Part shown: piece after piece, positions 5,657-26,807 of the stretch
Position numbering within the stretch: position 1 is the stretch's first letter
Layout of the letters: every line of letters starts with the position of its first letter
NCBI GenBank assembly: GCA_017472695.1
Contig: JAFUOQ010000027.1
Coordinates: forward strand, 1-35,302
Source: Clostridia bacterium
GTDB lineage: Bacteria; Bacillota; Clostridia; Oscillospirales; CAG-272
Reading direction: 5' to 3'
DNA: 35,302 nucleotides
The notes under the pieces: model-generated
Database searches by the model: none
Told to the model about the DNA's origin: nothing
What the model saw: only the letters and a program-made list of their open reading frames with translations
Position numbers and translations under genes: made by a program

Positions 5657-5661
5657 GAATG

Positions 5662-6885: not shown

Positions 6886-6890
6886 CAAAA

Positions 6891-6913: not shown

Positions 6914-6935
6914 CGTCTTATAAATTCAAAAATTA

Positions 6936-7002: not shown

Positions 7003-7045
7003 TATAGAACAAGCGCGAGTTCAATATAAAAAGGAGCTTAAATTT

Positions 7046-8122: not shown

Positions 8123-8126
8123 AAAA

Positions 8127-8151
8127 GTGAGTGCTTCGGCACTCGCTTTTT
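8127..8151 (+). terminator. UUCG-loop terminator of XRE gene 3 (copy 4)
   Basis: GTGAGTGC (8127-8134) and GCACTCGC (8139-8146) with a TTCG loop and TTTTT. Its T-run is also the start of the next operator dyad. Confidence 0.9.
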
Positions 8152-8215
8152 CAACCTGTGGTTGAAAAAAATCAACTGTGAGGCTGTTGTATATTGTGAA
8201 AAATGGTGTTATAAT
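8147..8215 (+). promoter_or_regulatory. promoter and strong operator dyad of fourth XRE gene
   Basis: TTTTTCAACC (8147-8156), the spacer TGT and GGTTGAAAAA (8160-8169) form a perfect 10-bp inverted repeat, the best copy of the AACC-N3-GGTT element. TTGTAT (8187-8192), a 17-base spacer and TATAAT (8210-8215) form the promoter. Confidence 0.75.
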
Positions 8216-8267
8216 GAAAATGTAAAAAAGAAGCGCTTCAAAAAAATCATTTTGAAAGGAACAAAAA

Positions 8268-8990
8268 ATGGAAAACATAAACGCTATTTTAGCAAGTAAC
8301 ATAGCTTCATTTAGAAAACAAAAAGCTCTTACTCAGGAAAAGTTAGCAGTGCTACCTGGTGTATCCTATCAGGCAGTATCAAAATGGGAAAATGAGAAGT
8401 CATTGCCTGACATTACAATTTTGCCAATTTTGGCTGATACCTTTGACTGTACTATAGATGAGCTTTTTTCGAGGAAATACACAAATTCAAATTGCATCAC
8501 CTGGGATGATGACGATAAAATACGAGGAGTTGTTTATAAAGGTAGGCACATCTTAGAAGCATCAAATCCAAACGATTTGGCATTGCTTCAAAAATTTACC
8601 TTTGAGGTTGATGGAGATGCGAAAAGCATCGAGTGTCAATGTAACGTAACAGTTAGTGGGTCTGTTTCCTGTGGTGTAAATGCAAACGGAGAGGTTACGG
8701 CATGTGGTCATATAAGCGGTGGAGTCAATTCCTGTGGAGACGTAACAGCAGGCTTTAACTTGAGTGGTGGAGTTAATGCAAACGGAGATGTGTGTGCTGG
8801 CAAGGATATAATTGGCGAAATTAATACAACAAGAGGAATTACAGTAAAGGGCAACGTTTCGGGAAACATTGAGTGCGACGGAAAAATTCAAGTCGAGGGA
8901 AACGTTGATGCTGGAAAAATAACAGGAAACGTTATCTGCAATGAGCTAAAATGCGAAAGAGTAGAGGGAAGTGTAACCATAAATAAGTAG
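8268..8990 (+). CDS. XRE HTH fused to beta-solenoid (bactofilin-like) repeat domain
   Basis: Residues 1-67 are a typical Cro/CI HTH (FRKQKALTQEKLAVLPGVSY, QAVSKWENEKSLPDITILP, TIDELF). After a linker (about 68-115), residues 120-240 consist of short valine/glycine-rich strands with a period of about 16 residues. The turns read GGVNSCGDVTAG, GGVNANGDVCAG, GEINTTRGITVKG, GNIECDGKIQVEG and so on. This pattern is that of a right-handed parallel beta-helix such as bactofilin or polymer-forming domains; cysteines recur at the same turn positions. No membrane segment or signal peptide is seen. The ATG follows GAAAGGA. It is the last gene of the XRE array and no clear terminator follows. The fusion suggests a DNA-binding protein whose tail oligomerises or senses a ligand, which is inference. 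Confidence 0.8.
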   Translation: MENINAILASNIASFRKQKALTQEKLAVLPGVSYQAVSKWENEKSLPDITILPILADTFDCTIDELFSRKYTNSNCITWDDDDKIRGVVYKGRHILEASNPNDLALLQKFTFEVDGDAKSIECQCNVTVSGSVSCGVNANGEVTACGHISGGVNSCGDVTAGFNLSGGVNANGDVCAGKDIIGEINTTRGITVKGNVSGNIECDGKIQVEGNVDAGKITGNVICNELKCERVEGSVTINK

Positions 8991-12697: not shown

Positions 12698-12730
12698 GGG
12701 GCTGACCGAATTTAAGCGGTCAGCCCTTTA
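12698..12730. terminator. intrinsic terminator between VWA and hydrogenase genes
   Basis: GGGCTGACCG (12698-12707) pairs perfectly with CGGTCAGCCC (12717-12726), followed by TTTATATTT. A-rich sequence on the other side gives a T-run on the minus strand too, so it can also end the minus-strand hydrogenase operon. Confidence 0.85.
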
Positions 12731-12757: not shown

Positions 12758-14179
12758 TTACTTTAATAGCAAAACAGCATCACCAATTGTTTTTTCAAGC
12801 GACTCACGACCGTACTTGTCAACCTCGGCTTTGTTCTTTTCACCGTGTGTCAGGCAACCTGCACCACCGATACATCCGCCGATGCAAGCCATACCTTCAA
12901 TAAAGTTACCGTCAAGAATGCCCTTATTCAGCTTTAACAGAGCCATACGGCAGGTCTCAATACCGTCGCAGGGAACTGCTTTCAGATCAAAGTCGATATT
13001 CTGTTCCTTGAGCCCTTGTGCTACTGCATCGGAAAGACCGCCGGAACGTGCAAAGATACGACCGAAATAGGAAGCGTTATCAAGAACGTCTTCGCCAAGT
13101 GTGGTAATGTCGATATCCTTACTGTCAAAGAGCGCTTGCAGTTCTTCAAAGGTGAGAACGGAATCGACATAGTTCTTGACTTCTTCAAGCTGAGCCTCTG
13201 CCTTTTTTGCTGTGCATGGACCGATGAAAACGACCTTCGCATTCGGTGTGGTATCCTTGATGTACTTTGCAAGTGTTGCCATCGGGGAAAGGTTGTGTGA
13301 AACGTACTTCAAGATATCTGGAAAAGCGGACTTAATGTACGCCACAAAAGCAGGACAGCAGGAGCTTGTCAAAAGACCTTTTTCTGCGAGCTCCTTGGAT
13401 TCAGCCTGAGCAACCATATCTGCACCAAGAGCAGCTTCTACTACCGTGAAAAAACCAAGCTCCTTGAGTCCAGTAACGACCTGACCGAGCTTTGCATAGG
13501 TAAACTGACTCGAAATAGAGGGGGCAACCATTGCATAGACCTTATATTTCTCGTTGTTCTCGCTCCTTTTGATGAGGTCAATGACATTGAGAATATAGGA
13601 CTTATCCATAATAGCACCGAAGGGACACTGATAAACGCAGGCACCGCATTGAATGCACTTGTGGTTATCAATAGTAGCCGATTTCTTCTCGTTCATAGAA
13701 ATTGCTTTGACCTTGCAGGCGTTTTGACAAGGGCGCTTACGGCTTACGATTGCAGTATAAGGGCAGACCCTCGCGCACGCTCCGCACTCCTTACACTTGG
13801 ATCTATCGATGTGTGCAACGTGCTGATGGTCAAATGAGATCGCTCCGAACTTGCAGACATCCTCGCAGCGATGTGCAAGGCAGCCACGACAGGCATTCGT
13901 TACTTCATAGCCACCGACAGGGCATTCGTCACAGGCAATATCAATTACTTCAATAACGTTGGGGTTGTTTTTATCTCCACCCATTGCGATCTTAACTCTC
14001 TCACCGAGAATCGCTCGCTCTTTATATACACAGCAACGCATGGTAGGTTCATTACCGGGCACAATCGTTTTCGGAATATCCATGACGTGCTCCAGCAATA
14101 CGTCTTTCCAAGCAAGGCGTGCAACCTCGCGTAGTACTTTATATTTCAAGTGCTGTACTTTGGTATCAAATTTACGCAT
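12758..14179 (-). CDS. hydA: monomeric [FeFe] hydrogenase with ferredoxin-like N-terminus
   Basis: This 473-residue protein has cysteine clusters at 83-109 (including CRGCLAHRCEDVC), then ferredoxin-type motifs CKECGACARVCP (129-140) and CIQCGACVYQCP (175-186). A hydrogenase large domain follows. The H-cluster signatures are TSSCCPAF (271-278, L1), FIGPCTAKKAE (318-328, L2) and GMACIGGCIGGAG (429-441, L3). All four H-cluster cysteines are present, as is the adjacent proton-transfer cysteine. L1 reads TSSCCP instead of the usual TSCCP, and the type is closer to the poorly studied monomeric (group B-like) enzymes than to HydABC subunits. It should interconvert H2 and protons with ferredoxin. 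It is the last gene of a co-oriented cluster, 11 bases after the phosphatase. No HydEFG maturases are in the window. Confidence 0.85.
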   Translation of the reverse strand: MRKFDTKVQHLKYKVLREVARLAWKDVLLEHVMDIPKTIVPGNEPTMRCCVYKERAILGERVKIAMGGDKNNPNVIEVIDIACDECPVGGYEVTNACRGCLAHRCEDVCKFGAISFDHQHVAHIDRSKCKECGACARVCPYTAIVSRKRPCQNACKVKAISMNEKKSATIDNHKCIQCGACVYQCPFGAIMDKSYILNVIDLIKRSENNEKYKVYAMVAPSISSQFTYAKLGQVVTGLKELGFFTVVEAALGADMVAQAESKELAEKGLLTSSCCPAFVAYIKSAFPDILKYVSHNLSPMATLAKYIKDTTPNAKVVFIGPCTAKKAEAQLEEVKNYVDSVLTFEELQALFDSKDIDITTLGEDVLDNASYFGRIFARSGGLSDAVAQGLKEQNIDFDLKAVPCDGIETCRMALLKLNKGILDGNFIEGMACIGGCIGGAGCLTHGEKNKAEVDKYGRESLEKTIGDAVLLLK

Positions 14180-14190
14180 TTTACACCTCC

Positions 14191-15363
14191 TTAGAAATAG
14201 CTTACCTTGATGCGCTTACCCATCTTTTTCAGGCAGGCAGATAATTCTTCCACCAAATTCATTTTGATATTGAAGTTGATAGGAAGATCGGGATTTTGAT
14301 GGGCAGGATTTACGGCTCTGCCTACATAGAAATTGATGTCGGTGGCTTCCTCAAACAGCAGTCGACTGATCAGAGAAGCACCGTCCTTCTTGAAGTTCCA
14401 AGTTTCATACAACTCGTTTTCTCCTAGATAATCCTTTGCGTACTCAATTACGCGGTTCATAGTGATTACACCCTCGGTAACCAGATCCACGCCCTCGATC
14501 TCTGCAATCGGAGGAATATCCGAACGCTCGAATTTTAGACTTGCCTTTACGGTTTTACCGAGAAATTTAGCAGCAATGGATGATGTAGTTCCACCGCAGA
14601 TGATATGCTTTCCTTTCTTTGAGAAGAAAAGGGACATCATTCTATCACAATCATCTCGGTTTGAGGGAGGTCCGAAGAGGATATTCATCGGCTCTCTCTT
14701 TCTGATTTTAACGACGCAGGCGGTCGTATCGTCTCCAGGCTTGTGTCCATAAAGCTTATCACATTCATCAACGAGCATAGTGGAGAGATTTTTAGCGGTG
14801 TAGCCACCGCAGATAAGCGCTTGCATATAATCGGCAATATCCTCTCGCTTCCAACCAAAGTTGTATCTTCCACCGAGCCCTGCATGAGGACAGCCGTCGC
14901 TCATCGCTATAAAAACGTCGTCCTCTTGGAGCTTAATGATTGATTTGTAGATCTTTTTGCCGCCGATATTTAACTCAGTCTTGGGATAAGCATATATGTC
15001 AAAGTCTCTGTATGCAATTACTTGAGGATTGTCGTATTGGATGATCTCAGCCGTATCATTGTTTTGAATATGAATAATAGTAAAAGTGGAATATGCCACG
15101 CCGCGCACCGAGCAAACTGGAAGGGTTGCGGCGATCGTGGACACACACTCCTCAATAGGAAGTCCGGCAGCCATCATCGTGGAGATGATCTTGGATGTAA
15201 GAGTCGAAAGAATACTTGCCTTAACACCCGAGCCAAGACCGTCTGCAAGCACGATAACGGTTGAATTATCGTTTTCCTCTATGATGTCTACGTGGTCACC
15301 GCAAAGCTCTTCGCCAATGTGATTGATGCTTTTGTATCCGATATCTGCACACAAATCATTCAT
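14191..15363 (-). CDS. SpoIIE/PP2C-type phosphatase of hydrogenase cluster
   Basis: The 390-residue protein has a PP2C fold of the SpoIIE type in its first 230 residues: a GDH segment, VLADGLGSGVKAS, then FIAMSDGCPHAG and PGDDTTACVV, supplying the metal-binding aspartates. The C-terminal 160 residues (after REPMNILFGPPS) are an extra domain without an obvious family; ICGGTTSSIAAKFLG looks like a nucleotide- or phosphate-binding loop. ATG at 15363 overlaps the end of the HydS gene by 8 bases; GTG three bases upstream is an alternative. SpoIIE-like enzymes dephosphorylate Ser/Thr on regulatory partners. Fixed pairing with an HydS protein is known for putative sensory hydrogenase clusters, so it is probably the output enzyme of the sensor. 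Confidence 0.82.
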   Translation of the reverse strand: MNDLCADIGYKSINHIGEELCGDHVDIIEENDNSTVIVLADGLGSGVKASILSTLTSKIISTMMAAGLPIEECVSTIAATLPVCSVRGVAYSTFTIIHIQNNDTAEIIQYDNPQVIAYRDFDIYAYPKTELNIGGKKIYKSIIKLQEDDVFIAMSDGCPHAGLGGRYNFGWKREDIADYMQALICGGYTAKNLSTMLVDECDKLYGHKPGDDTTACVVKIRKREPMNILFGPPSNRDDCDRMMSLFFSKKGKHIICGGTTSSIAAKFLGKTVKASLKFERSDIPPIAEIEGVDLVTEGVITMNRVIEYAKDYLGENELYETWNFKKDGASLISRLLFEEATDINFYVGRAVNPAHQNPDLPINFNIKMNLVEELSACLKKMGKRIKVSYF

Positions 15364-17038
15364 CACCAATAGACTCCTTTAGCTTTGTCAGGGCAATCTT
15401 TGTCTCTGCGGCGGTTTCTCCGAGCAGAGAAGCAATTTCCTGAACGATTCTCATCTGCTTTTCTACGACGGTATCGGCAACCTCAACGGTTTGCTGATTG
15501 ATTCTCGTCTTTCTTTCTCTCTCCGCTTCCTCGTCGGTTATGTCACGCATAATTCCAACGAGCATACGGGAATCTGGATCGAATACAACTGTTTGTTCGA
15601 TGTACTTTTTATATTCTGCAAGATAAACCTTCTGGTCTCTTACGCTTCTTCCAGAATTCTTAACGCTCATAAACACAGCAGGATCGAGAATGCGAACTAC
15701 GGGCTCTCCAAGTACATCAGACTCGAAACGGATATTCATGATCTTTCTTGCTGCAGCGTTGATTTGCTGAACCTCAAGATTCTCATTCAGCACGATCAGT
15801 CCGTTTGGGGTATTTTTGACAATTGTATCTGAGAAGCTTTCCGCCTTATCCTTAAGGAAGGGCAGACACATAGAGATCTCAGCCTTGCCCTGAATGATAG
15901 CGATTGCTTTCTCACGGCAGGAGTTGTAGCCACAGGAACCGCAGTTCAATTCGTCTGAGGGCTTGAACTTACCCATCTGACGAAGCACGGCACTGATTTC
16001 ATATTCAGCTGGCTGCATAGCCTTATGATCGATTATCGTGAAGTGCTTTTTAAGTGCTAATGCTTCAGGCTGTGCAACGTCAAAGTCGCGCGTGCCCGCG
16101 TACTGTGCAATCGACATATAATCGTGAACGGGAGAACGGTGGTATTTCTCCATTACAGGACCGCCGATACAGCTACCGACACAAGCAGACATCTCGATAA
16201 AGCATTTATGGATCTTACCGCTTTCAATATCCTTGAGCGCGGTGATGCAATTTTCAACGCCATCAAGTGCCAAGAAAGTATAGTCGGGTACATTCTGCGT
16301 CATTGTCTTAAGAATACCGCCGGTGGTGGGGAAGAAGCGAGCTCTGCTCTCGGGGTTTTTATCCATCTCCTTTTCAAGCTCGATACGCTCGGATTTCAAC
16401 CAATTTGTGAGCTCCTCAAAGGTGAGTACGGCGTCAACAGGTCCTTCGTAATATTCTGCCTCATCCTTCTTAGCCACGCAAGGACCGATAAATACCGTCT
16501 TTGCATTGGGGATGCGCTTCTTGATATCTATGCAGTGCGCTTGCATAGGAGACAAGACATCCGCAAGATATTGAAGCTCAGCAGGGAAGTATTTCTGAAT
16601 CAAAAGGTTGATAGAGTGGCAGCAGGAGGTAATAATAATATCTCTGCTGTCTTCTTTCAGCATACGCTCATACTCTGTTTTAACTATGGTAGCACCGATT
16701 GCAGTTTCCTCTACGTCATAGAAGCCAAGCTTTTTGAGAGCCTTGCGCATTGCTTCAATTCCAACGCCGTCATAGTTAGCAATAAAGGAAGGAGCAAGGC
16801 TGACAACGACAGGGTCACCGCTTTGAATCAAAACTCTGACCTTTTCCGTGCTGTCCACGATTTCTTTTGCGTTTTGAGGACAAACGACAAAGCAATGACC
16901 GCACAAAATGCACTCATTGCTGATGATATGTGCTTGGTTGCCCGAAAAACGGATAGCCTTTACAGGACAGTGACGGATACATTTATAGCAGTTTTTACAG
17001 TTGGATTTTTTCAGCGTTAAGCAGTTAGCCATGCTCAT
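15356..17038 (-). CDS. HydS-type sensory [FeFe]-hydrogenase-like protein with PAS domain
   Basis: The 560-residue protein has an N-terminal 2x[4Fe-4S] ferredoxin domain (CKNCYKCIRHCP at 14-25; CILCGHCFVVCP at 43-54). A hydrogenase large-subunit domain covers about 75-300, with L1 TSCCHS (137-142), L2 FIGPCVAKKDEA (183-194) and L3 EMSACVGSCIGG (282-293). A [4Fe-4S]-type CGSCGYNSC motif lies at 366-374 and a PAS domain at about 400-500. The C-terminus is a helical coiled coil. All H-cluster cysteines remain, but loop contexts differ from catalytic enzymes, as known for HydS proteins proposed to sense H2 or redox state. ATG at 17038 overlaps the previous stop (TGATG). The PAS-coil end fits signalling to the next gene, a PP2C phosphatase. 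A catalytic role is not excluded. Confidence 0.85.
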   Translation of the reverse strand: MSMANCLTLKKSNCKNCYKCIRHCPVKAIRFSGNQAHIISNECILCGHCFVVCPQNAKEIVDSTEKVRVLIQSGDPVVVSLAPSFIANYDGVGIEAMRKALKKLGFYDVEETAIGATIVKTEYERMLKEDSRDIIITSCCHSINLLIQKYFPAELQYLADVLSPMQAHCIDIKKRIPNAKTVFIGPCVAKKDEAEYYEGPVDAVLTFEELTNWLKSERIELEKEMDKNPESRARFFPTTGGILKTMTQNVPDYTFLALDGVENCITALKDIESGKIHKCFIEMSACVGSCIGGPVMEKYHRSPVHDYMSIAQYAGTRDFDVAQPEALALKKHFTIIDHKAMQPAEYEISAVLRQMGKFKPSDELNCGSCGYNSCREKAIAIIQGKAEISMCLPFLKDKAESFSDTIVKNTPNGLIVLNENLEVQQINAAARKIMNIRFESDVLGEPVVRILDPAVFMSVKNSGRSVRDQKVYLAEYKKYIEQTVVFDPDSRMLVGIMRDITDEEAERERKTRINQQTVEVADTVVEKQMRIVQEIASLLGETAAETKIALTKLKESIGDE

Positions 17039-17301
17039 CACTTCCTTTCTTCTTCAATAACCTTCAAAATATGTTCCGCAAAGAATTCTCTGAAATTCTC
17101 TTTGGTGATACCGACGTGAATATCATCGTTCACCTGTACAGTAACACCGACACGGTTGCACTTTCCAATACAGAAGCTACCGGAAAGCACGACCTCATCC
17201 TCAATATTATGATCCTTCACGGCTTTTTCAAAAAGCTCAACAATATCAGCAGAGCCTTTCAGATGGCATGATGAGCCAACACAAACCTGAACGAAAATCA
17301 T
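17038..17301 (-). CDS. thioredoxin-fold [2Fe-2S] ferredoxin (NuoE-like), copy 2
   Basis: With the ATG at 17301 the product has 87 residues. An in-frame ATG at 17319 is rejected because AAAGG lies 9 bases before 17301 and the longer form overlaps the preceding gene. Cysteines at 7, 12, 44 and 48 (CVGSSC and CIGKC) match the ligand spacing of thioredoxin-like [2Fe-2S] domains of NuoE and HydC. It is a close paralogue of the neighbouring gene, with identical cysteine positions. It lacks the helical extension of full NuoE, so it is a stand-alone electron carrier, probably shuttling electrons to or from HydS or the hydrogenase encoded next. Confidence 0.85.
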   Translation of the reverse strand: MIFVQVCVGSSCHLKGSADIVELFEKAVKDHNIEDEVVLSGSFCIGKCNRVGVTVQVNDDIHVGITKENFREFFAEHILKVIEEERK

Positions 17302-17305
17302 AATC

Positions 17306-17548
17306 TTATACCTTTGCAAGAATTTCCTTTTCGAAGAATTCGCCTACATCCTCGGGGGTAACGGAATAGAAGGTGTCGTTCACCGTTACGCAAACACCCT
17401 TCTGGCACTGTCCCATGCAGAATGTGCCACCGAGCTCAACCTTATCACCGAGTTTATTTTCTGCAATCAAATACTGAAGCTGTTCAACTACCTGGCGGGA
17501 ACCTTTGATATGGCAGGAGCTTCCGATACAAACTGTAATTTTAAGCAT
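17306..17548 (-). CDS. thioredoxin-fold [2Fe-2S] ferredoxin (NuoE-like), copy 1
   Basis: This 80-residue protein begins MLKITVCIGSSCHIKGS and has cysteine ligands at 7, 12, 44 and 48 (CIGSSC, CMGQC), the ligand set of thioredoxin-like [2Fe-2S] ferredoxins. It ends 4 bases before the second copy. Two such carriers in a row may allow dimerisation or division of labour between sensor and enzyme. It opens the second half of the rex-adhE-hydrogenase gene string after an 89-base gap holding a strong hairpin. Confidence 0.85.
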   Translation of the reverse strand: MLKITVCIGSSCHIKGSRQVVEQLQYLIAENKLGDKVELGGTFCMGQCQKGVCVTVNDTFYSVTPEDVGEFFEKEILAKV

Positions 17549-17583
17549 AATATTTTCCTCTCAATCTAATTTACGTGTTTAGC

Positions 17584-17619
17584 GCGGAGCTTCCCAAGAA
17601 TGTATTCTAGAAGCTCCGC
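17584..17619 (-). other. strong hairpin inside operon, between kinase and ferredoxin genes
   Basis: GCGGAGCTTC (17584-17593) and GAAGCTCCGC (17610-17619) form a perfect 10-bp stem with a 16-base loop. On the minus (coding) strand it is not followed by a T-run, so it is more likely an mRNA processing or stability element than a terminator. On the plus strand a T-run follows 6 bases later. Confidence 0.6.
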
Positions 17620-17637
17620 CACTTGTTTTTTAATCGA

Positions 17638-18387
17638 TTATTCGTAATCCACTACGTTGGTCCAGCTAATAAGGAACTCGCGCTCCTTTTCGTTGCCCTT
17701 AACGGACTGTGAAGCAGCCACGATAGGCATCCACTTCTGAACGTACTGCTTTGCGGTATCACTCTTCTTGCAGAAGAGCTCGAGGTACTTGTTAGCACCG
17801 CCAAAGTCGCCCTTGAGCATAAACAGCAGATAGGTGCGAGCTACGTCAGCTGAAGCATTGCCTTGGGTTGCGTGTGACCAGTCAAGAATGTATGGAGCTC
17901 CGTCATCGGTAATGATGATGTTTGAGGGATTGAAGTCGCCATGGCATACCTTGTTGTGCTTAGGCATACCCTCAAGTCGAGTATGAAGGTCATAACGGGT
18001 AGTAGCATCAAGGGTTGTTTGACTGATCTTACGATTCATCTTATCCTTGAGCTTGGTGAGAAGGGGACAGGTCTTTGCGTGAACGCTCATCTGAATATCT
18101 ACGAGAAGCTCGATGTATTCATCCTTTTTCTCGGGATTTTCTTCCATGAGCTGAGCGAGTGTCTTGCCCTTAATGAACTCGGAAACGATTGCCCACTTGC
18201 CGTCGATCATTGTAACACCGAGGATCTTAGGAATGTTCAGACCGGTCTCTTCAACTCTTGCCTGGTTGAGTGCCTCATTGAGTACGTCAGCCTTGGAGTA
18301 TTCTTCGTTAAATACCTTTACACAGGTATCACCATCACGATAGATGGTCTTGTTTGTTCTTACTGCGATCATTTTATCAAGTTTCAT
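17638..18387 (-). CDS. aminoglycoside-phosphotransferase-fold kinase
   Basis: The 249-residue protein has the small-molecule kinase fold: an N-lobe lysine in CVKVF (22-26), the catalytic loop CHGDFNPSNI (148-157) with Asp151, and the metal-binding ILDWSHA (167-173) with Asp169. It is shorter than most antibiotic kinases and has no resistance-gene context. It sits 20 bases after adhE and before the hydrogenase sensor genes, so it is probably co-transcribed. Such proteins phosphorylate small molecules or, rarely, protein Ser/Thr; the substrate cannot be read from the sequence. Its presence with a PP2C phosphatase in one operon raises the idea of an opposed kinase-phosphatase pair, which is inference. 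Confidence 0.8.
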   Translation of the reverse strand: MKLDKMIAVRTNKTIYRDGDTCVKVFNEEYSKADVLNEALNQARVEETGLNIPKILGVTMIDGKWAIVSEFIKGKTLAQLMEENPEKKDEYIELLVDIQMSVHAKTCPLLTKLKDKMNRKISQTTLDATTRYDLHTRLEGMPKHNKVCHGDFNPSNIIITDDGAPYILDWSHATQGNASADVARTYLLFMLKGDFGGANKYLELFCKKSDTAKQYVQKWMPIVAASQSVKGNEKEREFLISWTNVVDYE

Positions 18388-18407
18388 TGTTCCATGTCCT
18401 CCTTATT

Positions 18408-21104
18408 TTACGCTTTCTTACCCTTGCGGTAGGGTGTATTGATAGCATTTTGTGTTGTAACACCGAGGTCGTTTGTGGGCATTTTCTCTTCAACAAAGTG
18501 ATTGCCGTAGTATGCGTTGAGGTACATCTGCTTGATCTCACTTATCAGAGGATAACGGGGGTTAGCGCCGGTGCACTGGTCGTCGAATGCCTGCTCGGCC
18601 ATGTCATCAAGGCGATCGAGAAAGTCTTTTTCATCAATACCGTAATCCTTGATAGTAGCCTTGATGCCAACTCTTGTCTTGAGATCGTTGATCGCTTTAA
18701 TAAGACCTTCGAGCTTCTCCTCATTGTTTGCGCCCTTAATGCCAAGGTAATCAGCGATCTCAGCATATCTTGCGAGTGTGTGAGGATGATCGTACTGCGA
18801 GAAGGTACCCATTTTTGCGGGAGCCTCAGCAGCATTGAAGCGAAGAACCTCCTCGATCATAAGAGCGTTTGCAACGCCGTGGGGGAGGTGGTGGAATGCA
18901 CCGAGCTTGTGAGCCATCGAGTGGCAGACACCGAGAAATGCGTTTGCAAATGCCATACCTGCCATCGTAGCAGCGTTTGCCATCTTCTCACGAGCCTCAA
19001 CGTCGGTCTGCCCATTGTCGTAAGCTCTTGGCAAATACTCGAAGATCACCTTAAGAGCGCGGAGTGCAAGACCGTCGGTGTAGTCGGTAGCAAGCATTGC
19101 GGCATAAGCCTCAACTGCGTGAGTTACTGCATCAATGCCCGAAGCCGCAGTAAGTCCCTTGGGAGCAGACATATGAAAATCGGTGTCGATAATTGCCATG
19201 TTGGGAAGGAGCTCGTAGTCAGCAAGGGGATACTTAACACCGGTCTTCTCGTCGGTGATAACTGCGAAAGGAGTTACCTCGGAACCGGTACCTGCGGAGG
19301 TGGGGATTGCGATGAAGTATGCCTTCTCACCCATCTTCGGGAAGGTGTAGACTCTCTTACGGATATCGATGAAGCGCATTGCCATATCCATAAAGTCTGC
19401 TTCCGGATGCTCGTAGAGAACCCACATGATCTTTGCAGCGTCCATTGCGGAACCACCGCCGAGTGCGATGATGGTATCTGGCTGGAATGCTCTCATCTGA
19501 GCTGCTCCTTCAGTTGCATTTGCAAGGGTAGGATCGGGCTGTACGCCCCAAAACGTGATGTGTTGAATGCCCATTTCATCGAGCTTGTCTGTGATCGGCT
19601 TGGTGTAGCCGTTTTGGTAAAGGAAGGTGTCGGTAACGATGAACGCCTTCTTTGCGCCTCTTACAGTCTTAAGCTCGTTGAGAGCTACGGGGAGGCAACC
19701 CTTCTTGATGTAAACCTTTTCGGGTGTTCTGAACCAAAGCATATTTTCTCTCCTCTCGGCTACTGTTTTAATGTTGAGCAGGTGCTTAACACCTACGTTC
19801 TCGGATACGCTGTTACCGCCCCAAGAGCCACATCCCAGCGTGAGGGAGGGAGCAAGCTTGAAGTTGTAGAGGTCGCCAATACCACCGTGAGAGGAAGGGG
19901 TGTTAACGAGGATACGGCAGGTCTTCATACGAGCGGCAAAGGCGTCCAGCTTATCCTTTTCGGTCACTTCATTAAGATATACAGAGGAAGTATGACCGTA
20001 GCCACCATCAGCCACAAGATGCTCGGCCTTGTCAAGGGCTTCGCCAAAGTCCTTTGCCTTATACATAGCAAGTACGGGAGAAAGCTTCTCGTGAGCAAAT
20101 TCTTCGGAAAACTCTACGCTCTCAACCTCACCAATGAGGATCTTTGTACCTGCGGGAACAGTCACACCAGAGAGCTCTGCAATCTTCGCAGCTTTTTGAC
20201 CAACTATCTTTGCGTTCAGCGCACCGTTAATGATGATTGTTTTACGAACCTTTTCGGTTTCGATGGGATTGAGGAAGTAGCAGCCTCTTGCTGCAAACTC
20301 ATTTTTAACAGCATCATAAATGCTTTCAAGAACGATGACCGATTGCTCGGAAGCACAAATCATACCGTTATCGAAGGTCTTAGAGTGAATGATGGAGTTT
20401 ACTGCGAGAAGAATATCAGCGGTACTGTCGATGATCGCTGGAGTGTTACCCGCGCCAACGCCGAGAGCGGGCTTACCGCTGGAGTATGCAGCCTTAACCA
20501 TTCCGGGACCACCTGTTGCGAGGATGATATCAGCCTCTTTCATAACTGTGCTAGTCATCTCGAGGGAAGGAACGTCGATCCAATCAATGATACCCTCAGG
20601 AGCACCTGCGGCAACCGCAGCCTCGAGAACGAGCTTTGCAGCAGCGATGGTGGAGTTCTTTGCTCTTGGATGAGGGCTGATGATGATTGCGTTACGAGTC
20701 TTGAGTGCAAGCAAGCACTTGAAGATTGCGGTAGAGGTGGGGTTGGTGGTGGGGATTACTGCAGCGATTACACCGATCGGCTCTGCGATCTTCTTGATTC
20801 CGTATGCCTTGTCTTCCTCGATAACACCACAGGTCTTTGCATCCTTGTAAGCGTTGTAGATGTACTCGGCAGCGTAGTGATTCTTGATTACCTTGTCCTC
20901 TACAATACCCATGCCGGTTTCTTCAACTGCGAGCTTAGCAAGAGTGATTCTTGCCTTGTCAGCGGCAGAAGCAGCAGCGAGAAAGATCTTGTCAACCTGC
21001 TCCTGAGTATAGGTTGCAAATACTTTCTGTGCTTTCTTGGTGCGTGCGATAGCCTGCTCAAGCTTTTCAACACTGTCCACAATTTCATAAGTTTTGAGTT
21101 CCAT
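18408..21104 (-). CDS. adhE: bifunctional acetaldehyde-CoA/alcohol dehydrogenase
   Basis: The 898-residue protein has the full AdhE architecture. The N-terminal CoA-acylating aldehyde dehydrogenase (about 1-430) has its nucleophilic Cys250 in GMICASEQS. After a linker, the iron-dependent alcohol dehydrogenase (about 460-880) has GGGSAMDAAK for NAD binding and iron-ligand histidines in VCHSMAHKLGAFHH and LPHGVANA. It converts acetyl-CoA to ethanol, oxidising two NADH, and in relatives assembles into spirosomes. AGGAGG precedes the ATG. It follows rex by 20 bases, so both are transcribed from the rex promoter. A nearly full-length open frame on the opposite strand is a codon-bias shadow. Confidence 0.97.
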   Translation of the reverse strand: MELKTYEIVDSVEKLEQAIARTKKAQKVFATYTQEQVDKIFLAAASAADKARITLAKLAVEETGMGIVEDKVIKNHYAAEYIYNAYKDAKTCGVIEEDKAYGIKKIAEPIGVIAAVIPTTNPTSTAIFKCLLALKTRNAIIISPHPRAKNSTIAAAKLVLEAAVAAGAPEGIIDWIDVPSLEMTSTVMKEADIILATGGPGMVKAAYSSGKPALGVGAGNTPAIIDSTADILLAVNSIIHSKTFDNGMICASEQSVIVLESIYDAVKNEFAARGCYFLNPIETEKVRKTIIINGALNAKIVGQKAAKIAELSGVTVPAGTKILIGEVESVEFSEEFAHEKLSPVLAMYKAKDFGEALDKAEHLVADGGYGHTSSVYLNEVTEKDKLDAFAARMKTCRILVNTPSSHGGIGDLYNFKLAPSLTLGCGSWGGNSVSENVGVKHLLNIKTVAERRENMLWFRTPEKVYIKKGCLPVALNELKTVRGAKKAFIVTDTFLYQNGYTKPITDKLDEMGIQHITFWGVQPDPTLANATEGAAQMRAFQPDTIIALGGGSAMDAAKIMWVLYEHPEADFMDMAMRFIDIRKRVYTFPKMGEKAYFIAIPTSAGTGSEVTPFAVITDEKTGVKYPLADYELLPNMAIIDTDFHMSAPKGLTAASGIDAVTHAVEAYAAMLATDYTDGLALRALKVIFEYLPRAYDNGQTDVEAREKMANAATMAGMAFANAFLGVCHSMAHKLGAFHHLPHGVANALMIEEVLRFNAAEAPAKMGTFSQYDHPHTLARYAEIADYLGIKGANNEEKLEGLIKAINDLKTRVGIKATIKDYGIDEKDFLDRLDDMAEQAFDDQCTGANPRYPLISEIKQMYLNAYYGNHFVEEKMPTNDLGVTTQNAINTPYRKGKKA

Positions 21105-21124
21105 TTCTGTATGTCCTCCTAAAA

Positions 21125-21748
21125 TTATTTACTGATTTGATTATTGAGATATGCAAGTGAGAGTGCTAAGTTTTCTTGCTTCAAAAGAACACTCGAGGGA
21201 ACCTTCAGCGTGCAGGGAGCAAAATTCCATATTGCTTCGATTCCGCTTGCTACGAGTTGATCGCAAACATCCTGGGCAGAGCCTTTACCTACTGTGATAA
21301 TACCGAGCTTTACGTTGTATTCCGCACAATAAGAGGCGATATCCTTTATTGGAAGGATTGGCTTTGTGTTTTTACCGATCTGAAGTGCTTGTTCATTACA
21401 ATCGAAGCCTGCTACGATTTTTACACCGAACTCCTCAAAGCCATCATAATCAAGAAGCGCTCTGCCAAGCTTTCCAGCACCTACGAGAACTGCATTCGTC
21501 AACCTTTCATATCCGAGATGGCGTTCAAGATCGTCTATCAGCTTTGTTCTCTCGTATCCGATCTTAGGTTTTCCCGCGCCACTGACAGCAGCAAGATCCT
21601 TGCGAACCTGAACGTCGCCAAGAGAAAGACCTCTCGCAATTGCTGTTGCGGAGATCGTTGCACCATTTACGGCAGGTAAGCTTTTCAAATACTGTAAGTA
21701 CAGTGGAAGCCTTCCTAGTGTTGCCTTGGAAATAGAATATCCGTTCAT
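21125..21748 (-). CDS. rex: redox-sensing transcriptional repressor Rex
   Basis: The product (207 residues from ATG at 21748) has the Rex winged helix (IARGLSLGDVQVRKDLAAVSG at about 39-59) and a Rossmann NAD(H)-binding domain starting VLVGAGKLGRALL. It ends in the domain-swapped helix region typical of Rex. An upstream in-frame ATG at 21769 is rejected because the AGGAGG signal lies between the two. Rex normally represses fermentative genes and releases DNA when NADH/NAD is high. Here it is the first gene of a probable operon with adhE, fitting autoregulation. A canonical Rex operator was not found in its promoter; the palindrome present is of a different type. Confidence 0.94.
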   Translation of the reverse strand: MNGYSISKATLGRLPLYLQYLKSLPAVNGATISATAIARGLSLGDVQVRKDLAAVSGAGKPKIGYERTKLIDDLERHLGYERLTNAVLVGAGKLGRALLDYDGFEEFGVKIVAGFDCNEQALQIGKNTKPILPIKDIASYCAEYNVKLGIITVGKGSAQDVCDQLVASGIEAIWNFAPCTLKVPSSVLLKQENLALSLAYLNNQISK

Positions 21749-21776
21749 TTGCCACCTCCTTGTTTTCATCGTTAAT

Positions 21777-21805
21777 ATTTTAACACGCTTTCGGCTTCTT
21801 GGGAA
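21777..21805 (-). promoter_or_regulatory. rex-adhE promoter
   Basis: On the minus strand, TTCCCA (21805-21800), a 17-base spacer and TAAAAT (21782-21777). The -35 box is poor, as for an activated promoter. Architecture and spacing match the promoter of the second alcohol dehydrogenase gene. Confidence 0.65.
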
Positions 21806-21932: not shown

Positions 21933-21971
21933 GCCAAAAAAGAAAGGTCGCCTCTTCCTAAAGCGACCTTT
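21933..21971 (-). terminator. intrinsic terminator downstream of nfnAB
   Basis: AAAGGTCGC (21943-21951) pairs with GCGACCTTT (21963-21971). On the minus strand the hairpin is followed by a T-rich run (CTTTTTT), so it ends transcripts from the nfnAB genes upstream on that strand. Confidence 0.8.
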
Positions 21972-22105: not shown

Positions 22106-23521
22106 TTATTTAGAAAGTGCTTCGTCAATTGCCTTTGACGCAACCTTGCCTGCACCCATAGCAGAAATAACGGTTGCCGCACCGGTTACAGCATCGCCGC
22201 CTGCATAGACAGCATTGCGAGAGGTAAGTCCATCCTCATTAACAACGATTCCACCCCAACGGTTTACCTCAAGCCCCTCGGTTGTCGATTTGATCAGGGG
22301 ATTGGGTGAAGTACCGATAGACATAATAACAGTATCAACATCAATGGTGAATTCACTGTTCGGGATTACCACGGGACGTCTTCTGCCTTTTTCGTCTGGC
22401 TCGCCAAGCTCCATTCTGACACATTTCATTCCTGTAACGAAACCGTTTTTGGGATCTCTTGCATCATCAGGATTATTGTAGCCGAAAATTTCGGTGGGAT
22501 TGCAAAGCAGACGGAATTCAATTCCTTCCTCCTTTGCGTGCTCGACCTCCTCGCGTCTTGCGGGAAGCTCTTCCATTGAACGGCGGTAAACGATATAAAC
22601 CTTTTCTGCACCAAGACGGAGCGCAGTTCTTGCAGCGTCCATAGCAACGTTTCCGCCACCAACGACCGCAACCTTACCGCCCTTCATAATAGGAGTTTCG
22701 GGGTTTTCAAGATAGGATTTCATCAGATTGCTTCTTGTGAGGAACTCGTTTGCCGAATATACGCCCTTGTGTGATTCGCCGGGGATTCCCATAAAGTTGG
22801 GAAGACCTGCGCCCGAGCCGATGAACACGGCTTCATATCCCATTTCGAAAAGCTCGTCAATGGTCAAGGTCTTGCCAATAACGACGTTTGTTTCAATGTG
22901 AACACCTAACTTTTTGAGAGTATCTACCTCTTTCGCAACAATTCTTTTGGGAAGACGGAACTCGGGAATACCGTATACAAGCACACCTCCTGCGGTATGA
23001 AGTGCCTCATAAACGGTGACATCGTAGCCTTTTTTTGCAAGGTCGCCAGCACAGGTAAGACCGGAAGGACCTGATCCAACAATTGCAACTCTGTGGCCAT
23101 TGCTCTTGGGACGTGCAGGCTCTTCTGTAGAGAAGGTATTGTGCCAATCGGCAACGAAACGCTCCAAACGACCGATGCCGACAGACTCACCCTTGATGCC
23201 TCTGACACATTTGGATTCACACTGAGATTCCTGCGGACATACTCTGCCACAGACAGCGGGAAGGGAAGACGACTTGGTTATAATCTGATATGCGCCCTCA
23301 AAGTCTCCTTCCTTAATTTTAGAAATGAATTCGGGAATGTGAATTTTAACAGGGCAACCATTCACACAGGGCATATTCTTGCAGCTTAGGCATCTGTTTG
23401 CTTCATCGATTGCCTGTTCCTCGGTGTATCCGAGTGCAACCTCGTCAAAGTTGTGCGCTCTGACCTTTGCATCCTGCGTAGGCATAGCGTTTCTTGTAAG
23501 ACTCATATTTGCCTTAGCCAT
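22106..23521 (-). CDS. nfnB: NfnB / GltA-type NADPH-dependent flavoprotein subunit
   Basis: The 471-residue protein starts at ATG 23521, set by AAGGAGG and by a one-base gap to the preceding gene; an open extension upstream is rejected. It has two [4Fe-4S] sites (CLSCKNMPCVNGC at 44-56; CGRVCPQESQCESKC at 91-105). An FAD Rossmann motif (IVGSGPSGLTCAGDL) and a second nucleotide-binding motif (VVGGGNVAMDAARTALRLGA, then YRRS) follow. This is the layout of the glutamate synthase small subunit, SudA and NfnB. Pairing with an NfnA-like gene makes it the large subunit of NADH-dependent ferredoxin:NADP oxidoreductase, which makes NADPH by electron bifurcation. No GltB-type glutamate synthase gene is nearby. 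Confidence 0.88.
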   Translation of the reverse strand: MAKANMSLTRNAMPTQDAKVRAHNFDEVALGYTEEQAIDEANRCLSCKNMPCVNGCPVKIHIPEFISKIKEGDFEGAYQIITKSSSLPAVCGRVCPQESQCESKCVRGIKGESVGIGRLERFVADWHNTFSTEEPARPKSNGHRVAIVGSGPSGLTCAGDLAKKGYDVTVYEALHTAGGVLVYGIPEFRLPKRIVAKEVDTLKKLGVHIETNVVIGKTLTIDELFEMGYEAVFIGSGAGLPNFMGIPGESHKGVYSANEFLTRSNLMKSYLENPETPIMKGGKVAVVGGGNVAMDAARTALRLGAEKVYIVYRRSMEELPARREEVEHAKEEGIEFRLLCNPTEIFGYNNPDDARDPKNGFVTGMKCVRMELGEPDEKGRRRPVVIPNSEFTIDVDTVIMSIGTSPNPLIKSTTEGLEVNRWGGIVVNEDGLTSRNAVYAGGDAVTGAATVISAMGAGKVASKAIDEALSK

Positions 23522-23522
23522 T

Positions 23523-24377
23523 TTACTGTACCTCCTTCTTATAAAGATTACAAGTAGATTCATAAGCGTGGCGCTCAAAATCAGAATACATTCTGCCTCT
23601 TGACATTGCCTCGTCAAAGTCGATCTCGTAGCCGTTGAAGTCTGGGCCATCCACGCAAGCAAACTTGGTGACCTTCTTGCCGTCCACATTGAGAGTGAGA
23701 CGACAGCCTCCGCACATTCCTGTGCCGTCGATCATAATTGGGTTCATAGAAGCAGTAACGGGTGTACCGTAGGGCTTTGCCGTTGCTACTACAAACTTCA
23801 TCATAATGAGGGGCCCAATGGTGATGATCATATCAAACTTTTCGCCAGCTTCAAGCATCTCTTTGAGGGGAACGGTTACGTTTCCGTGCTCGCCGTAGGA
23901 GCCGTCGTCGGTCATCACGCGAAGCGTATCGGAGCAAGCCTTAAACTCGTCTTCAAGGATGAGAAGATCCTTGTTTCTGAATCCGATGATGCTCGTCACG
24001 TTAGCGCCCATTCCGTGAAGTGCCTCGGCAATGGGCATAGCGATAGCGCAACCAACACCACCACCAATGATGCAGACCTTTGCCAGACCTTCAAGATGTG
24101 TTGCTACTCCAAGAGGGCCAACAAAATCCTGAATACATTCGCCGGCTTCCTTATAAGAAAGCTTCTTGGTAGTACCGCCTACAACCTGGAAAATGATCTT
24201 TACTGTTCCATTATTCTTATTTACACCCGCAACAGTAAGAGGAATTCTCTCACCATCCTCGTCTACGCGCAGAATGATGAACTGTCCAGGCTTTGCTTTA
24301 TTTGCAACGAGCGGTGCCTCGATCCAAAGCTGAATCACCGTGGGATTCAACACCTTTTTGTCAACAATTTTATACAT
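23523..24377 (-). CDS. nfnA: NfnA / SudB-type FAD- and [2Fe-2S]-containing subunit
   Basis: The 284-residue protein has a ferredoxin-reductase fold like the electron-transfer subunit PyrK. It has an N-terminal FAD barrel (KPGQFIILRVDEDGERIPLT at about 29-48), an NAD(H)-binding domain (VCIIGGGVGCAIAMPIAEAL) and a C-terminal [2Fe-2S] site in GTGMCGGCRLTL plus FACVDGPDF. It lies one base before nfnB. GGAGG precedes the ATG. A hairpin terminator separates it from the alcohol dehydrogenase gene upstream, so transcription probably depends on read-through or a weak promoter after that gene. A sulfide dehydrogenase role is the alternative. Confidence 0.88.
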   Translation of the reverse strand: MYKIVDKKVLNPTVIQLWIEAPLVANKAKPGQFIILRVDEDGERIPLTVAGVNKNNGTVKIIFQVVGGTTKKLSYKEAGECIQDFVGPLGVATHLEGLAKVCIIGGGVGCAIAMPIAEALHGMGANVTSIIGFRNKDLLILEDEFKACSDTLRVMTDDGSYGEHGNVTVPLKEMLEAGEKFDMIITIGPLIMMKFVVATAKPYGTPVTASMNPIMIDGTGMCGGCRLTLNVDGKKVTKFACVDGPDFNGYEIDFDEAMSRGRMYSDFERHAYESTCNLYKKEVQ

Positions 24378-24394
24378 TTTTATCCTCCATTTGT

Positions 24395-24433
24395 AAAAAG
24401 ACGGCTACCGAAAAATCGGTAACCGCCATTTTT
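24395..24433 (-). terminator. intrinsic terminator between adh and nfnA
   Basis: TACCGA and TCGGTA, extended outward by CGG/CCG-type pairing, surround AAAA. On the minus strand the hairpin is followed by TCTTTTT. It separates adh from nfnAB and may set their ratio by partial read-through. Confidence 0.75.
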
Positions 24434-24454
24434 ATATTTACGAGTTAACCGTTA

Positions 24455-25672
24455 TCAGAAATCAACTTCGGTGTCGTAGTAGCAGCACTTGAGAAGCTTT
24501 TCCATCTCTTCAACGGAGATCTTTCTGGGGTTGGAGCCGGTGCAAGCATCTGCAACTGCATTCTTTGCAATCTCAGGAAGTCTATCAAGGAAGATGTTCT
24601 CGGGAACAAAACCGTTTTCGGTGGGGAGGCTGTCAAGACCGTAGTTCTTGATGCACTGAGGAATGTTAAGAGCATCGTTCATGCCACGGAGGTAAGCGAT
24701 GAGGCTTGCAACCTTCTCATCGTCGTTTGCACCGCCAAGACCCATGTAGTCAGCAATAACACCGTAACGCTTCTTTGCGGTCTCATCCTTTGCATTGAAG
24801 GCAATAACCTTAGGAAGGTACATAGCGTTAGCAGCACCGTGAATGAGGTGTGCGCCGAGATCCTCGAACACAGCACCGGTCTTGTGTGCCATAGAGTGAA
24901 CGATACCGAGAAGTGCGTTAGAGAATGCCATACCTGCAAGGCACTGAGCATTGTGCATAGAAGCACGCTTGGTCATGTCGCCATTGTAGGAGCCAACGAG
25001 GTTTTCCTGGATCATCTTGATAGCGAATATTGCAAGAGGATCGGTGAATTCGCAGTTCGCGGTGGAAACGTATGCCTCGATTGCGTGAGTCATAGCGTCC
25101 ATACCGGTGTGAGCGGTTAGCTTCTTAGGCATTGTCTCAGCAAGCTCGGGATCAACGATTGCAACGTCGGGAGTGATCTCAAAGTCAGCAAGAGGATACT
25201 TTATGCCTTTCTTATAATCGGTAATTACGGAAAAAGCAGTAACCTCAGTAGCAGTACCTGAAGTGGATGGAATAGCGCAGAAGTGTGCCTTTTTACGAAG
25301 CTCGGGAATACCGAATACTACGCACATCTCTTCGAAGGTGATTTCTGGATACTCATATTTGATCCACATTGCCTTTGCGGCATCGATGGGTGAACCACCA
25401 CCGATTGCAACGATCCAGTCTGGCTGGAACTTTGCCATAGCCTCAGCACCGCGCATAACGGTGTCAACGGAAGGATCGGGCTCAATACCTTCAAAGAGCT
25501 CAACCTCCATACCTGCTTCCTTAAGGTAGGAAACAACCTTGTCAAGGAAACCGAAGCGCTTCATAGAGCCGCCACCAACGCAAACCATTGCGCGAGTTCC
25601 CTTAAGATTCTTTAGCGCTTCAAGAGCGCCCTTGCCATGATAGAGATCACGGGGTAATGTAAAACGTGCCAT
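24455..25672 (-). CDS. iron-containing alcohol dehydrogenase
   Basis: This 405-residue group III alcohol dehydrogenase has GGGSPIDAAKAMW for cofactor binding (about 93-105) and the segment IPSTSGTATEVTAFSVITD. Iron-ligand positions lie in MTHAIEAY, IVHSMAHKTGAVF and HLIHGAANAM. It resembles the C-terminal half of AdhE more than butanol dehydrogenases such as BdhA. It would reduce acetaldehyde or another aldehyde to the alcohol; coenzyme preference is not evident. AAGGAG precedes the ATG. Its promoter shares a long palindromic element and identical spacing with the rex-adhE promoter, so the two alcohol dehydrogenases are probably co-regulated. A LysR gene lies just upstream. Confidence 0.93.
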   Translation of the reverse strand: MARFTLPRDLYHGKGALEALKNLKGTRAMVCVGGGSMKRFGFLDKVVSYLKEAGMEVELFEGIEPDPSVDTVMRGAEAMAKFQPDWIVAIGGGSPIDAAKAMWIKYEYPEITFEEMCVVFGIPELRKKAHFCAIPSTSGTATEVTAFSVITDYKKGIKYPLADFEITPDVAIVDPELAETMPKKLTAHTGMDAMTHAIEAYVSTANCEFTDPLAIFAIKMIQENLVGSYNGDMTKRASMHNAQCLAGMAFSNALLGIVHSMAHKTGAVFEDLGAHLIHGAANAMYLPKVIAFNAKDETAKKRYGVIADYMGLGGANDDEKVASLIAYLRGMNDALNIPQCIKNYGLDSLPTENGFVPENIFLDRLPEIAKNAVADACTGSNPRKISVEEMEKLLKCCYYDTEVDF

Positions 25673-25714
25673 AACTTTTTCTCCTTGTGAGCTTTATTTT
25701 TTCTTTACGGTATC

Positions 25715-25743
25715 ATTATACCACCCTCACAAGCCCTTGTGAA
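25715..25743 (-). promoter_or_regulatory. promoter of adh
   Basis: On the minus strand, TTCACA (25743-25738), a 17-base spacer and TATAAT (25720-25715). Confidence 0.75.
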
Positions 25744-25752
25744 TAATCAAAA

Positions 25753-25783
25753 TGTTATATCGGTATTATCAATATCGATATAA
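25753..25783. promoter_or_regulatory. palindromic regulatory element, copy B (adh)
   Basis: TGTTATATCG (25753-25762) and CGATATAA (25776-25783) with a 13-base spacer, 9 bases upstream of the -35 box. Nearly every base equals copy A at the rex promoter, and the identity continues to the -35 box. Confidence 0.8.
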
Positions 25784-25795
25784 GACATATCAATA

Positions 25796-25826
25796 CAAAA
25801 ATGGCTCTGCATTTTTGCAAAGCCAT
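25796..25826 (-). terminator. intrinsic terminator of LysR gene
   Basis: ATGGCT (25801-25806) and AGCCAT (25821-25826), with internal TGCA/TGCA pairing. On the minus strand it is followed by TTTTT. Confidence 0.75.
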
Positions 25827-25843
25827 CATTATATAATAATTAA

Positions 25844-26767
25844 TTATTTAACGAATTTTCTTCTTGCCTCGCATAGCGCGGTAATGAAATCCTTATCAAG
25901 CTTGGTGAGCTTGTATCCTTTATGATATATAAGAACATCTTTATATACCTTCTTATTTCCTTGGCATACGCGCTGAACGAGATTATATCTGTCAAGTATC
26001 TGTTGCGATGCGGGAGATACCCACATAAAGGTCTTGGGATTCTCGGAGAGAAGGTCAAACTGACTTGCTCTCTCAAACACGAATATTCTCTGACCAATGT
26101 TATCGGGAAGCTCCTCACGGAATACCTTTGACATTGAAAGCGTGGGAACGTATGGATCTGCATGAGCTATTTCAATGTAAGAGGACAGATCCTCATAGGT
26201 GATTGTTTCCTTTTCAGCGAGAGGGTTATCTCGGCTCATAATAAGAACATACGAGAATTCAGCAACCAACTCATAAGCAAGCCCCTTTTCCTCAAACATC
26301 GTTTTATAATACTTGTCGTAATTTTCAGAGTAACGAATGATTCCGAGCTTGTATTCATTCTCCAAAAGCTTTTTTATAGTCTTTTTGGAGTTTGTTTCCT
26401 TATAATATATTTCTACGTCAGAGTCACCGATATTCTTGGAGAACTCCGCAAGTGCTGCAGAAATATAGCACGCACGAGGAACGGAAATGGAGAACTTGCG
26501 TTTCTTATGTGAACCATCACGGTAAGACTGCTCGATTTTATCAATACGTAGAAGAATGTCGCGCGCATAGTCCATAAACTCCTCCCCATCGGGAGTCAGC
26601 ACCATTCCTTTTGCACTTCGTTGAAAGATCGTAATTCCAAGATCAGCCTCAAGCTCCTTGATGGAGCGGCTGATATTGGGTTGTGCGATTAGAAGGGTTT
26701 CCGCTGCTTTATTCAACGATCCAAGTCTTGCGACCTCAACCGCATATTTCATATGGAGTAGATTCAT
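25844..26767 (-). CDS. LysR-family transcriptional regulator 1
   Basis: The 307-residue protein (ATG at 26767, AAAGGAGG upstream; a longer frame from 26836 would run over the promoter) has a winged HTH at 1-60 (MKYAVEVARLGSLNKAAETL, ISRSIKELEADLGITIFQRS). A periplasmic-binding-like effector domain covers about 90-300. LysR proteins usually activate neighbouring genes by binding near -65. The palindrome at the adjacent adh promoter, and its twin at rex-adhE, sit at that distance, making this the leading candidate regulator of both alcohol dehydrogenase loci. Its own promoter contains a perfect palindrome between -35 and -10. Confidence 0.88.
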   Translation of the reverse strand: MNLLHMKYAVEVARLGSLNKAAETLLIAQPNISRSIKELEADLGITIFQRSAKGMVLTPDGEEFMDYARDILLRIDKIEQSYRDGSHKKRKFSISVPRACYISAALAEFSKNIGDSDVEIYYKETNSKKTIKKLLENEYKLGIIRYSENYDKYYKTMFEEKGLAYELVAEFSYVLIMSRDNPLAEKETITYEDLSSYIEIAHADPYVPTLSMSKVFREELPDNIGQRIFVFERASQFDLLSENPKTFMWVSPASQQILDRYNLVQRVCQGNKKVYKDVLIYHKGYKLTKLDKDFITALCEARRKFVK

Positions 26768-26807
26768 AAACGAGCCTCCTTTTATCATCGCTGTGCTTAT
26801 ATATTTA

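Follow-up and report, generated by a model that had tools for sequence, protein, structure and literature searches.

A probable Rex-controlled operon joins ethanol and H2 formation to a redox sensor and an adhE-linked kinase in a Clostridia bacterium

Introduction

In Ruminococcus albus 7, an eight-gene cluster that includes a ferredoxin hydrogenase, a bifunctional alcohol/aldehyde dehydrogenase and a sensory hydrogenase is 111-fold downregulated in H2-consuming co-culture, and the sensory hydrogenase and its phosphatase have been proposed to sense H2 (PMC6776011). Here we analyze a comparable locus in the Clostridia bacterium assembly GCA_017472695.1 (Oscillospirales; CAG-272), within a stretch of 35,302 nucleotides, hereafter the window, that spans positions 1 to 35,302 of contig JAFUOQ010000027.1. 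Its minus strand carries, from 21748 down to 12758, rex, adhE, a kinase of the aminoglycoside phosphotransferase (APH) fold, two [2Fe–2S] carriers, a sensory hydrogenase with a PAS domain (HydS), a SpoIIE-type phosphatase and a group B1 [FeFe] hydrogenase.

Like the window, the R. albus cluster combines a group C sensory hydrogenase bearing a PAS domain with a putative Ser/Thr phosphatase, a ferredoxin hydrogenase and AdhE, all co-regulated; its ferredoxin hydrogenase, however, is classed as group A1 (PMC6776011), whereas that of the window is assigned to group B1 by TIGR04105. In Clostridium thermocellum, the region Cthe_0422–0432 shares with the window the series rex, adhE (Cthe_0423), aminoglycoside phosphotransferase, small hypothetical protein, Fe–S protein (the sensory hydrogenase) and SpoIIE protein (PMC3848806, PMC3561251), and Cthe_0422 (rex), Cthe_0424 (aminoglycoside phosphotransferase), Cthe_0426 (Fe–S), Cthe_0427 (SpoIIE) and Cthe_0430 (hydrogenase) are jointly downregulated after furfural (PMC3848806). 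The C. thermocellum region differs in having one small protein where the window has two carriers, and in continuing with genes classed as encoding a trimeric bifurcating hydrogenase (Cthe_0428–0430) where the window has a B1 enzyme.

The hfsABCD genes of Thermoanaerobacterium saccharolyticum also resemble the window, with HfsB corresponding to HydS, HfsC to the phosphatase and HfsD to the hydrogenase, and with a genetic link to adhE (PMC5707799, PMC11837493). Deletion of hfsA or hfsB raises the adhE transcript two- to threefold and increases NADH-dependent alcohol dehydrogenase activity but not NADH-dependent aldehyde dehydrogenase activity; for the hfsB deletion, the authors took this discrepancy to suggest post-transcriptional control (PMC5707799). 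Rex sites are predicted before both adhE and hfsABCD (PMC5886521). Unlike in the window, adhE (Tsac_0416), the hfs genes (Tsac_1550 onward) and rex (Tsac_2615) occupy separate loci as judged by their tags, and the available portions of PMC5707799 and PMC11837493 mention no kinase alongside them.

That HydS and its phosphatase form a feedback loop has already been put forward as a hypothesis (Zheng 2014, as reported in PMC5707799; PMC6776011). A sequence-only reading of the window had described HydS–phosphatase pairs as known putative sensory hydrogenases; the operon and the loop are already known, and the loop as first drawn is close to the published one and not new. The same reading had listed the kinase without a role. 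Of the genes that look regulatory, none is bound to adhE as closely as the kinase, and in the literature searched, as far as it was available to us, we found no comment on the function of an adhE-linked kinase or on phosphorylation of AdhE, Cthe_0424 appearing just in a table (PMC3848806).

Results

The eight genes are separated by gaps of 20 bp (rex to adhE), 20 bp (adhE to kinase), 89 bp (kinase to carrier a), −14 bp (carrier a to b), −4 bp (carrier b to HydS), −14 bp (HydS to phosphatase) and +11 bp (phosphatase to hydrogenase). The sequence-only reading had placed eight genes on one strand with short gaps or overlaps within 12758–21748, and this arrangement is borne out, as is its rex start at 21748, 5′ of which stands AAGGAGG; the starts in overlapping pairs are partly TTG or GTG and could be placed otherwise. 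A terminator-like hairpin with a 12-pair stem and a T tail (21943–21971, minus strand) parts the upstream nfnAB-like genes from rex, and a second with a 10-pair stem (12699–12726, minus strand, with the hairpin on both strands) follows the hydrogenase gene. Between these two, the single hairpin is a weak one inside the phosphatase gene (15239–15218), and none falls in any intergenic gap. The scan of both strands returned 11 hairpins where shuffled sequence gave 8.6 on average, which is no enrichment, and a search of the window with Rfam at gathering thresholds gave no matches.

The synteny survey in Clostridia that had been suggested finds the gene order again across many genera, a recurrence that argues against chance. 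One locus (L164) has rex, adhE, kinase, carrier, HydS and phosphatase in sequence, and rex lies immediately 5′ of adhE in 24 of 68 loci. The window also shows the features of hfs or HydS–HydA2 operons, namely HydS-PAS followed by a SpoIIE-type phosphatase, with a monomeric, non-bifurcating [FeFe] hydrogenase in the operon. The earlier proposal of a single operon under the joint influence of Rex and HydS is thus well supported: the layout and the hairpins fit it, the gene order is conserved, a Rex-operator-like site is present and equivalent clusters have been published as co-regulated. We consider it probable that the window holds one Rex-controlled operon that couples ethanol formation by AdhE and H2 formation by the B1 hydrogenase with a redox sensor of its own, forming an operon-level circuit.

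The rex gene (21125–21748, minus strand; NF003994, 240.7 bits, cut-off 130) encodes an NADH-responsive repressor. Upstream of it, promoter-like hexamers at 21805–21777 accompany the palindrome GTGTTAAAATATTAACGA (21769–21786, minus strand), which differs at two positions from TTGTTAANNNNTTAACAA, the sequence that we take to be the Rex consensus and used for scoring, and which overlaps the predicted −10 box (21782–21777). It is the position of this predicted operator, not the count of such sites, that speaks for its role. Across 142 related operons (window excluded; 8 of 150 dropped for too little upstream DNA), Rex-like sites with at most one mismatch precede 19, against 0.4% of dinucleotide shuffles, and those with at most two mismatches precede 47, against 4.3%; the degenerate consensus was broadened after a first look, which had used simple shuffles, and the operons share kinship with one another. 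By first gene, the sites with at most one mismatch lie before adhE in 8 of 41 operons, carrier a in 6 of 34, carrier b in 2 of 4 and HydS in 1 of 14. Some of the operons with such a site open with a carrier gene or HydS and show no adhE over the length read, which means that a Rex-like site can belong to the sensor module where adhE is missing. A second imperfect palindrome (TATCGA..CGATA) lies 5′ of rex at 21842–21818, and TCGATAAAxxTATATCGA-like sites precede several related operons; it is possibly a LysR site, which is a guess.

The APH-fold kinase (17638–18387, minus strand; PF01636, 54.0 bits, cut-off 23.2) directly follows adhE, which encodes a bifunctional acetaldehyde/alcohol dehydrogenase (18408–21104, minus strand; NF010378, 1392.6 bits, cut-off 951). 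The kinase carries the HGDxxxxN and metal-binding Asp motifs of APH superfamily kinases, and H149, D151, N156, D169 and K24 are kept in 96–98 of 98 aligned rows. In a family set of 295 genomes, which are related and not independent, so that Fisher values on kinase counts overstate significance, we found 111 homologs in 101 genomes. For 76 of the 111, adhE lies directly 5′ on the same strand, at gaps of −54 to 186 bp, and three more (G129:C38, G249:C137 and G008:C12) stand behind a piece of adhE severed by a contig end, giving at least 79. AdhE matches were restricted to E ≤ 1e-100 and to a few candidates per genome, and genes are cut at contig ends, so this adjacency is undercounted. Another 19 kinases have HydS downstream and no adhE found upstream, some of them near contig ends.

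Wider samples gave the same picture. Of the 30 best class-level loci, the window among them, 27 have adhE upstream of the kinase. In a set of named loci (one genome per species, the best 80 of 575 confirmed relatives, which favors close kin; many records are herbivore-gut metagenome assemblies labeled Clostridia, Ruminococcus or Oscillospiraceae), adhE precedes the kinase in 70 of the 74 with upstream DNA, which 6 of the 80 lack, and the carrier/HydS part follows it in 55 of the 75 with downstream DNA. Locus L146 has an iron alcohol dehydrogenase in the adhE position, ahead of kinase, carriers, HydS and phosphatase. In L289, from a record titled Candidatus Treponema caballi, homologs of the kinase and phosphatase (78% and 75%) point to transfer or mis-binning.

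The kinase also stands behind adhE in genomes lacking HydS, including 7 of 8 other genomes drawn from the genus. HydS was found in none of those eight, so the window operon is patchy in the genus. Contamination by a foreign contig was considered on that ground and rejected: the ClpB that this contig encodes finds a 91% match in G262, a member of the genus, in keeping with the genus assignment. The genome of the window holds a second adhE–kinase pair (G000:C18:10677–14070, L113), with a kinase 59% identical to that of the window and no HydS in the stretch read. In three loci (L133, L143 and L135), the kinase immediately precedes a B1 hydrogenase at gaps of −5, 11 and 17 bp, with no adjoining adhE. 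On a quick tree of 98 APH sequences, gene-context labels cluster (30 changes against a shuffled mean of 49.1), with at least 5 of the 98 labels wrong, as adhE or a piece of it lies upstream in L115, L118, L119 and L121 (labeled 'other') and in L142 (labeled 'HydB1 only'). The tree shows just that gene context clusters and is not fixed.

The kinase may act on a small molecule, or repair a metabolite, in service of the ethanol pathway and be no regulator at all. It would then keep company with adhE because the cell requires the two at the same time, and HydS and its phosphatase would act on something else. We regard this as a serious possibility that falls somewhat short of even chances. It would fit the APH superfamily as such and the sequence match to a choline kinase, the closest of the solved relatives (E = 6.6e-10), as well as weak matches to thiamine kinase and CcrZ models far under their cut-offs. 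The TIGR02172 kinase family model scores 66.6 bits, under its curated cut-off of 228.2. A conserved LDW..GNASAD run, which we take to resemble metabolite kinases, points the same way. Set against this are a RIO1 match over cut-off (38.3 bits, cut-off 22) and weaker protein-kinase matches such as StkP, the next solved relative, some of which may reflect the shared fold alone, and the three homologs directly before a B1 hydrogenase in the absence of adhE, which no one metabolite obviously explains.

Downstream of the kinase lie two thioredoxin-like [2Fe–2S] carriers, a (17306–17548, minus strand; PF01257, 35.8 bits) and b (17038–17319, minus strand; PF01257, 34.2 bits), each with a Cx4C..Cx3C pattern; of 106 loci, 61 have both, 36 have one and 9 have none. 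HydS (15356–17041, minus strand) comprises two [4Fe–4S] motifs, corresponding to two matched Fer4 stretches, an H-cluster domain (PF02906, 170.7 bits), an FeS domain (PF04060, 41.9 bits), all scoring above their Pfam cut-offs, and a PAS domain whose score (PF00989, 22.6 bits) is exactly at the cut-off; the Pfam search matched no output domain. HydS matches occur in 85 of the 295 family genomes and in 38 of 71 genera, and at class level 130 genomes gave a match, 40 of which supplied the HydS regions used. Each of 113 aligned HydS rows out of 113 (the partial HydS of L136 was left out) has the full set of four H-cluster cysteines, with positions set by alignment to solved hydrogenases. The cysteine beside the first of them, a proton relay, is kept in 99 of the 113.

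The HfsC-like phosphatase (14191–15369, minus strand; SpoIIE-type PP2C, PF07228, 48.9 bits, cut-off 25) lies directly 3′ of HydS in all 106 loci with enough downstream DNA. It shares with SpoIIE-type PP2C phosphatases its domain and catalytic aspartates, which are kept in 108 of 108 rows, and differs from them in context and C terminus: we found no PF01740 STAS protein in the assembly of the window (90.65% complete; other STAS models were not searched), and the C-terminal 168 residues (14194–14697), conserved across loci, have no Pfam match at E ≤ 1. A route through a STAS anti-anti-sigma factor was rejected, as beyond the missing PF01740 protein the assembly has just two sub-cut-off HATPase_c_2 matches.

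The last gene encodes a group B1 monomeric [FeFe] hydrogenase (12758–14179, minus strand; TIGR04105, 580.8 bits, cut-off 450) in the position of HfsD or HydA2. Its H-cluster cysteines are present in 78 of 78 rows. A B1 gene lies directly behind the phosphatase in 58 of 89 loci and follows after an insert of about 1 kb in five more; in L034 (3858–4802), the insert is a lactate/malate dehydrogenase gene, and L035, L036 and L146 contain similar open reading frames. Other loci have a HydC–HydB–HydA-like set nearby instead of B1, recognized by weak matches to the window B1 and [2Fe–2S] proteins. In such a set within the genome of the window (L298:9189–10943; HydB and HydC assigned by eye), HydA reads TSCSPGW where we take TSCCP to be the usual motif.

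Around the operon, an NfnAB-like pair, an iron alcohol dehydrogenase and a LysR regulator lie upstream on the same strand (22106–26836), and L034 has the same order before rex. Translations read by eye suggest that the left end (560–3220) encodes replication-like and serine-recombinase-like proteins and is possibly the edge of a mobile element, and that four consecutive helix-turn-helix regulator genes lie at 4487–8990.

Discussion

The operon would link ethanol formation from NADH by AdhE with H2 formation from reduced ferredoxin by the B1 hydrogenase. At high NADH, Rex would leave the operator-like site seen at the rex promoter, allowing transcription of all eight genes. The carriers, which the sequence-only reading had passing electrons on, might feed HydS. 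HydS would bind an H-cluster, read H2 or the redox state of ferredoxin and, through its PAS region, alter the activity of the phosphatase encoded by its constant gene partner; the phosphatase may in turn alter a phosphorylated target that sets the levels or activity of AdhE and the hydrogenase. The substrate of the kinase would be AdhE, the hydrogenase or a metabolite in their pathway, a role that we think the most likely one and still put at somewhat less than even odds.

Several observations weigh against this circuit. Within the window, Rex-like sites with at most three mismatches number 6 in 35 kb against 4.1 expected, which is not above chance, and sites with at most one mismatch precede only 2 of the 25 related operons that start with rex and none of the 24 that start with the kinase. 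In T. saccharolyticum, the rex transcript climbed with ethanol, contrary to a simple Rex model (PMC5707799). HydS, which stands in for the HydS–phosphatase pair in these counts, is missing from 41 of 101 kinase genomes, and the kinase is missing from 23 of 83 HydS genomes (2 of the 85, G104 and G147, were dropped as other hydrogenases at 36% identity). Kinase and phosphatase are therefore not an obligate pair, and the notion that they form an obligate writer and eraser is weakened. Matches to both kinds of enzyme mean that sequence cannot separate a protein kinase from a metabolite kinase. Finally, the genome of the window, at 90.65% completeness, yielded neither a HydF above its cut-off nor a HydG at E ≤ 1e-40 (HydE was not searched), so an active H-cluster there is not assured.

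This last point could mean that neither HydS nor the B1 protein holds a full H-cluster here and that HydS serves as a plain Fe–S redox relay joined to a PAS domain and responds to ferredoxin or the redox state, not to H2, a reading we judge doubtful. It would agree with the occurrence of HydF (E ≤ 1e-60) in just one among 29 genus genomes and with a test of ten genomes for HydG, which exceeded the cut-off in three (G017, G134 and G023), was sub-cut-off in G008 and gave no match in six: that of the window and five of the nine others. Nine of the ten tested genomes have HydS; of these, three with no HydG match (G016, G033 and G006) are 94 to 98% complete, and their HydS proteins retain the H-cluster cysteines. 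The invariance of these cysteines in HydS and B1 proteins is, however, difficult to account for unless the cluster is under selection, and the genome of the window, itself incomplete, also has the HydC–HydB–HydA-like set. Possible explanations are maturases that escaped detection, another route of hydrogenase maturation in these lineages, or a HydS that falls short of a full hydrogenase in this organism; in the literature searched, by titles and the beginnings of abstracts, we found no report of bacteria with an [FeFe] hydrogenase and no maturases.

That the cluster is instead a Rex regulon neighborhood of separate transcripts, co-regulated by NADH alone and with HydS acting elsewhere, seems distinctly improbable: weak promoter-like hexamers at and in the 89-bp gap before carrier a and the Rex-like sites that HydS operons lacking adhE can own would allow it, but that gap has no terminator-like hairpin, order is conserved and gaps are short, and the equivalents in R. 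albus and C. thermocellum behave as a block (PMC6776011, PMC3848806).

Within the single Rex-controlled operon that we favor, the HydS–phosphatase sensor pair and the adhE–kinase pair look like two modules that have merged, because the former is constant across loci and the latter also occurs in the absence of HydS. A bolder proposal, and on present indications an unlikely one, is that the kinase is a dedicated protein kinase of fermentation enzymes in Clostridia, acting on AdhE and in some species on the B1 hydrogenase; in operons like this one the HydS-gated phosphatase would reverse the modification, which, next to transcriptional control by Rex, would let H2 pressure set ethanol formation. 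It has long been asked how H2 pressure moves fermenters from acetate plus H2 to ethanol and back, and the step that connects HydS and its phosphatase with AdhE is still missing from the picture. The kinase tied to adhE in many Clostridia is a concrete, deletable candidate for that gap.

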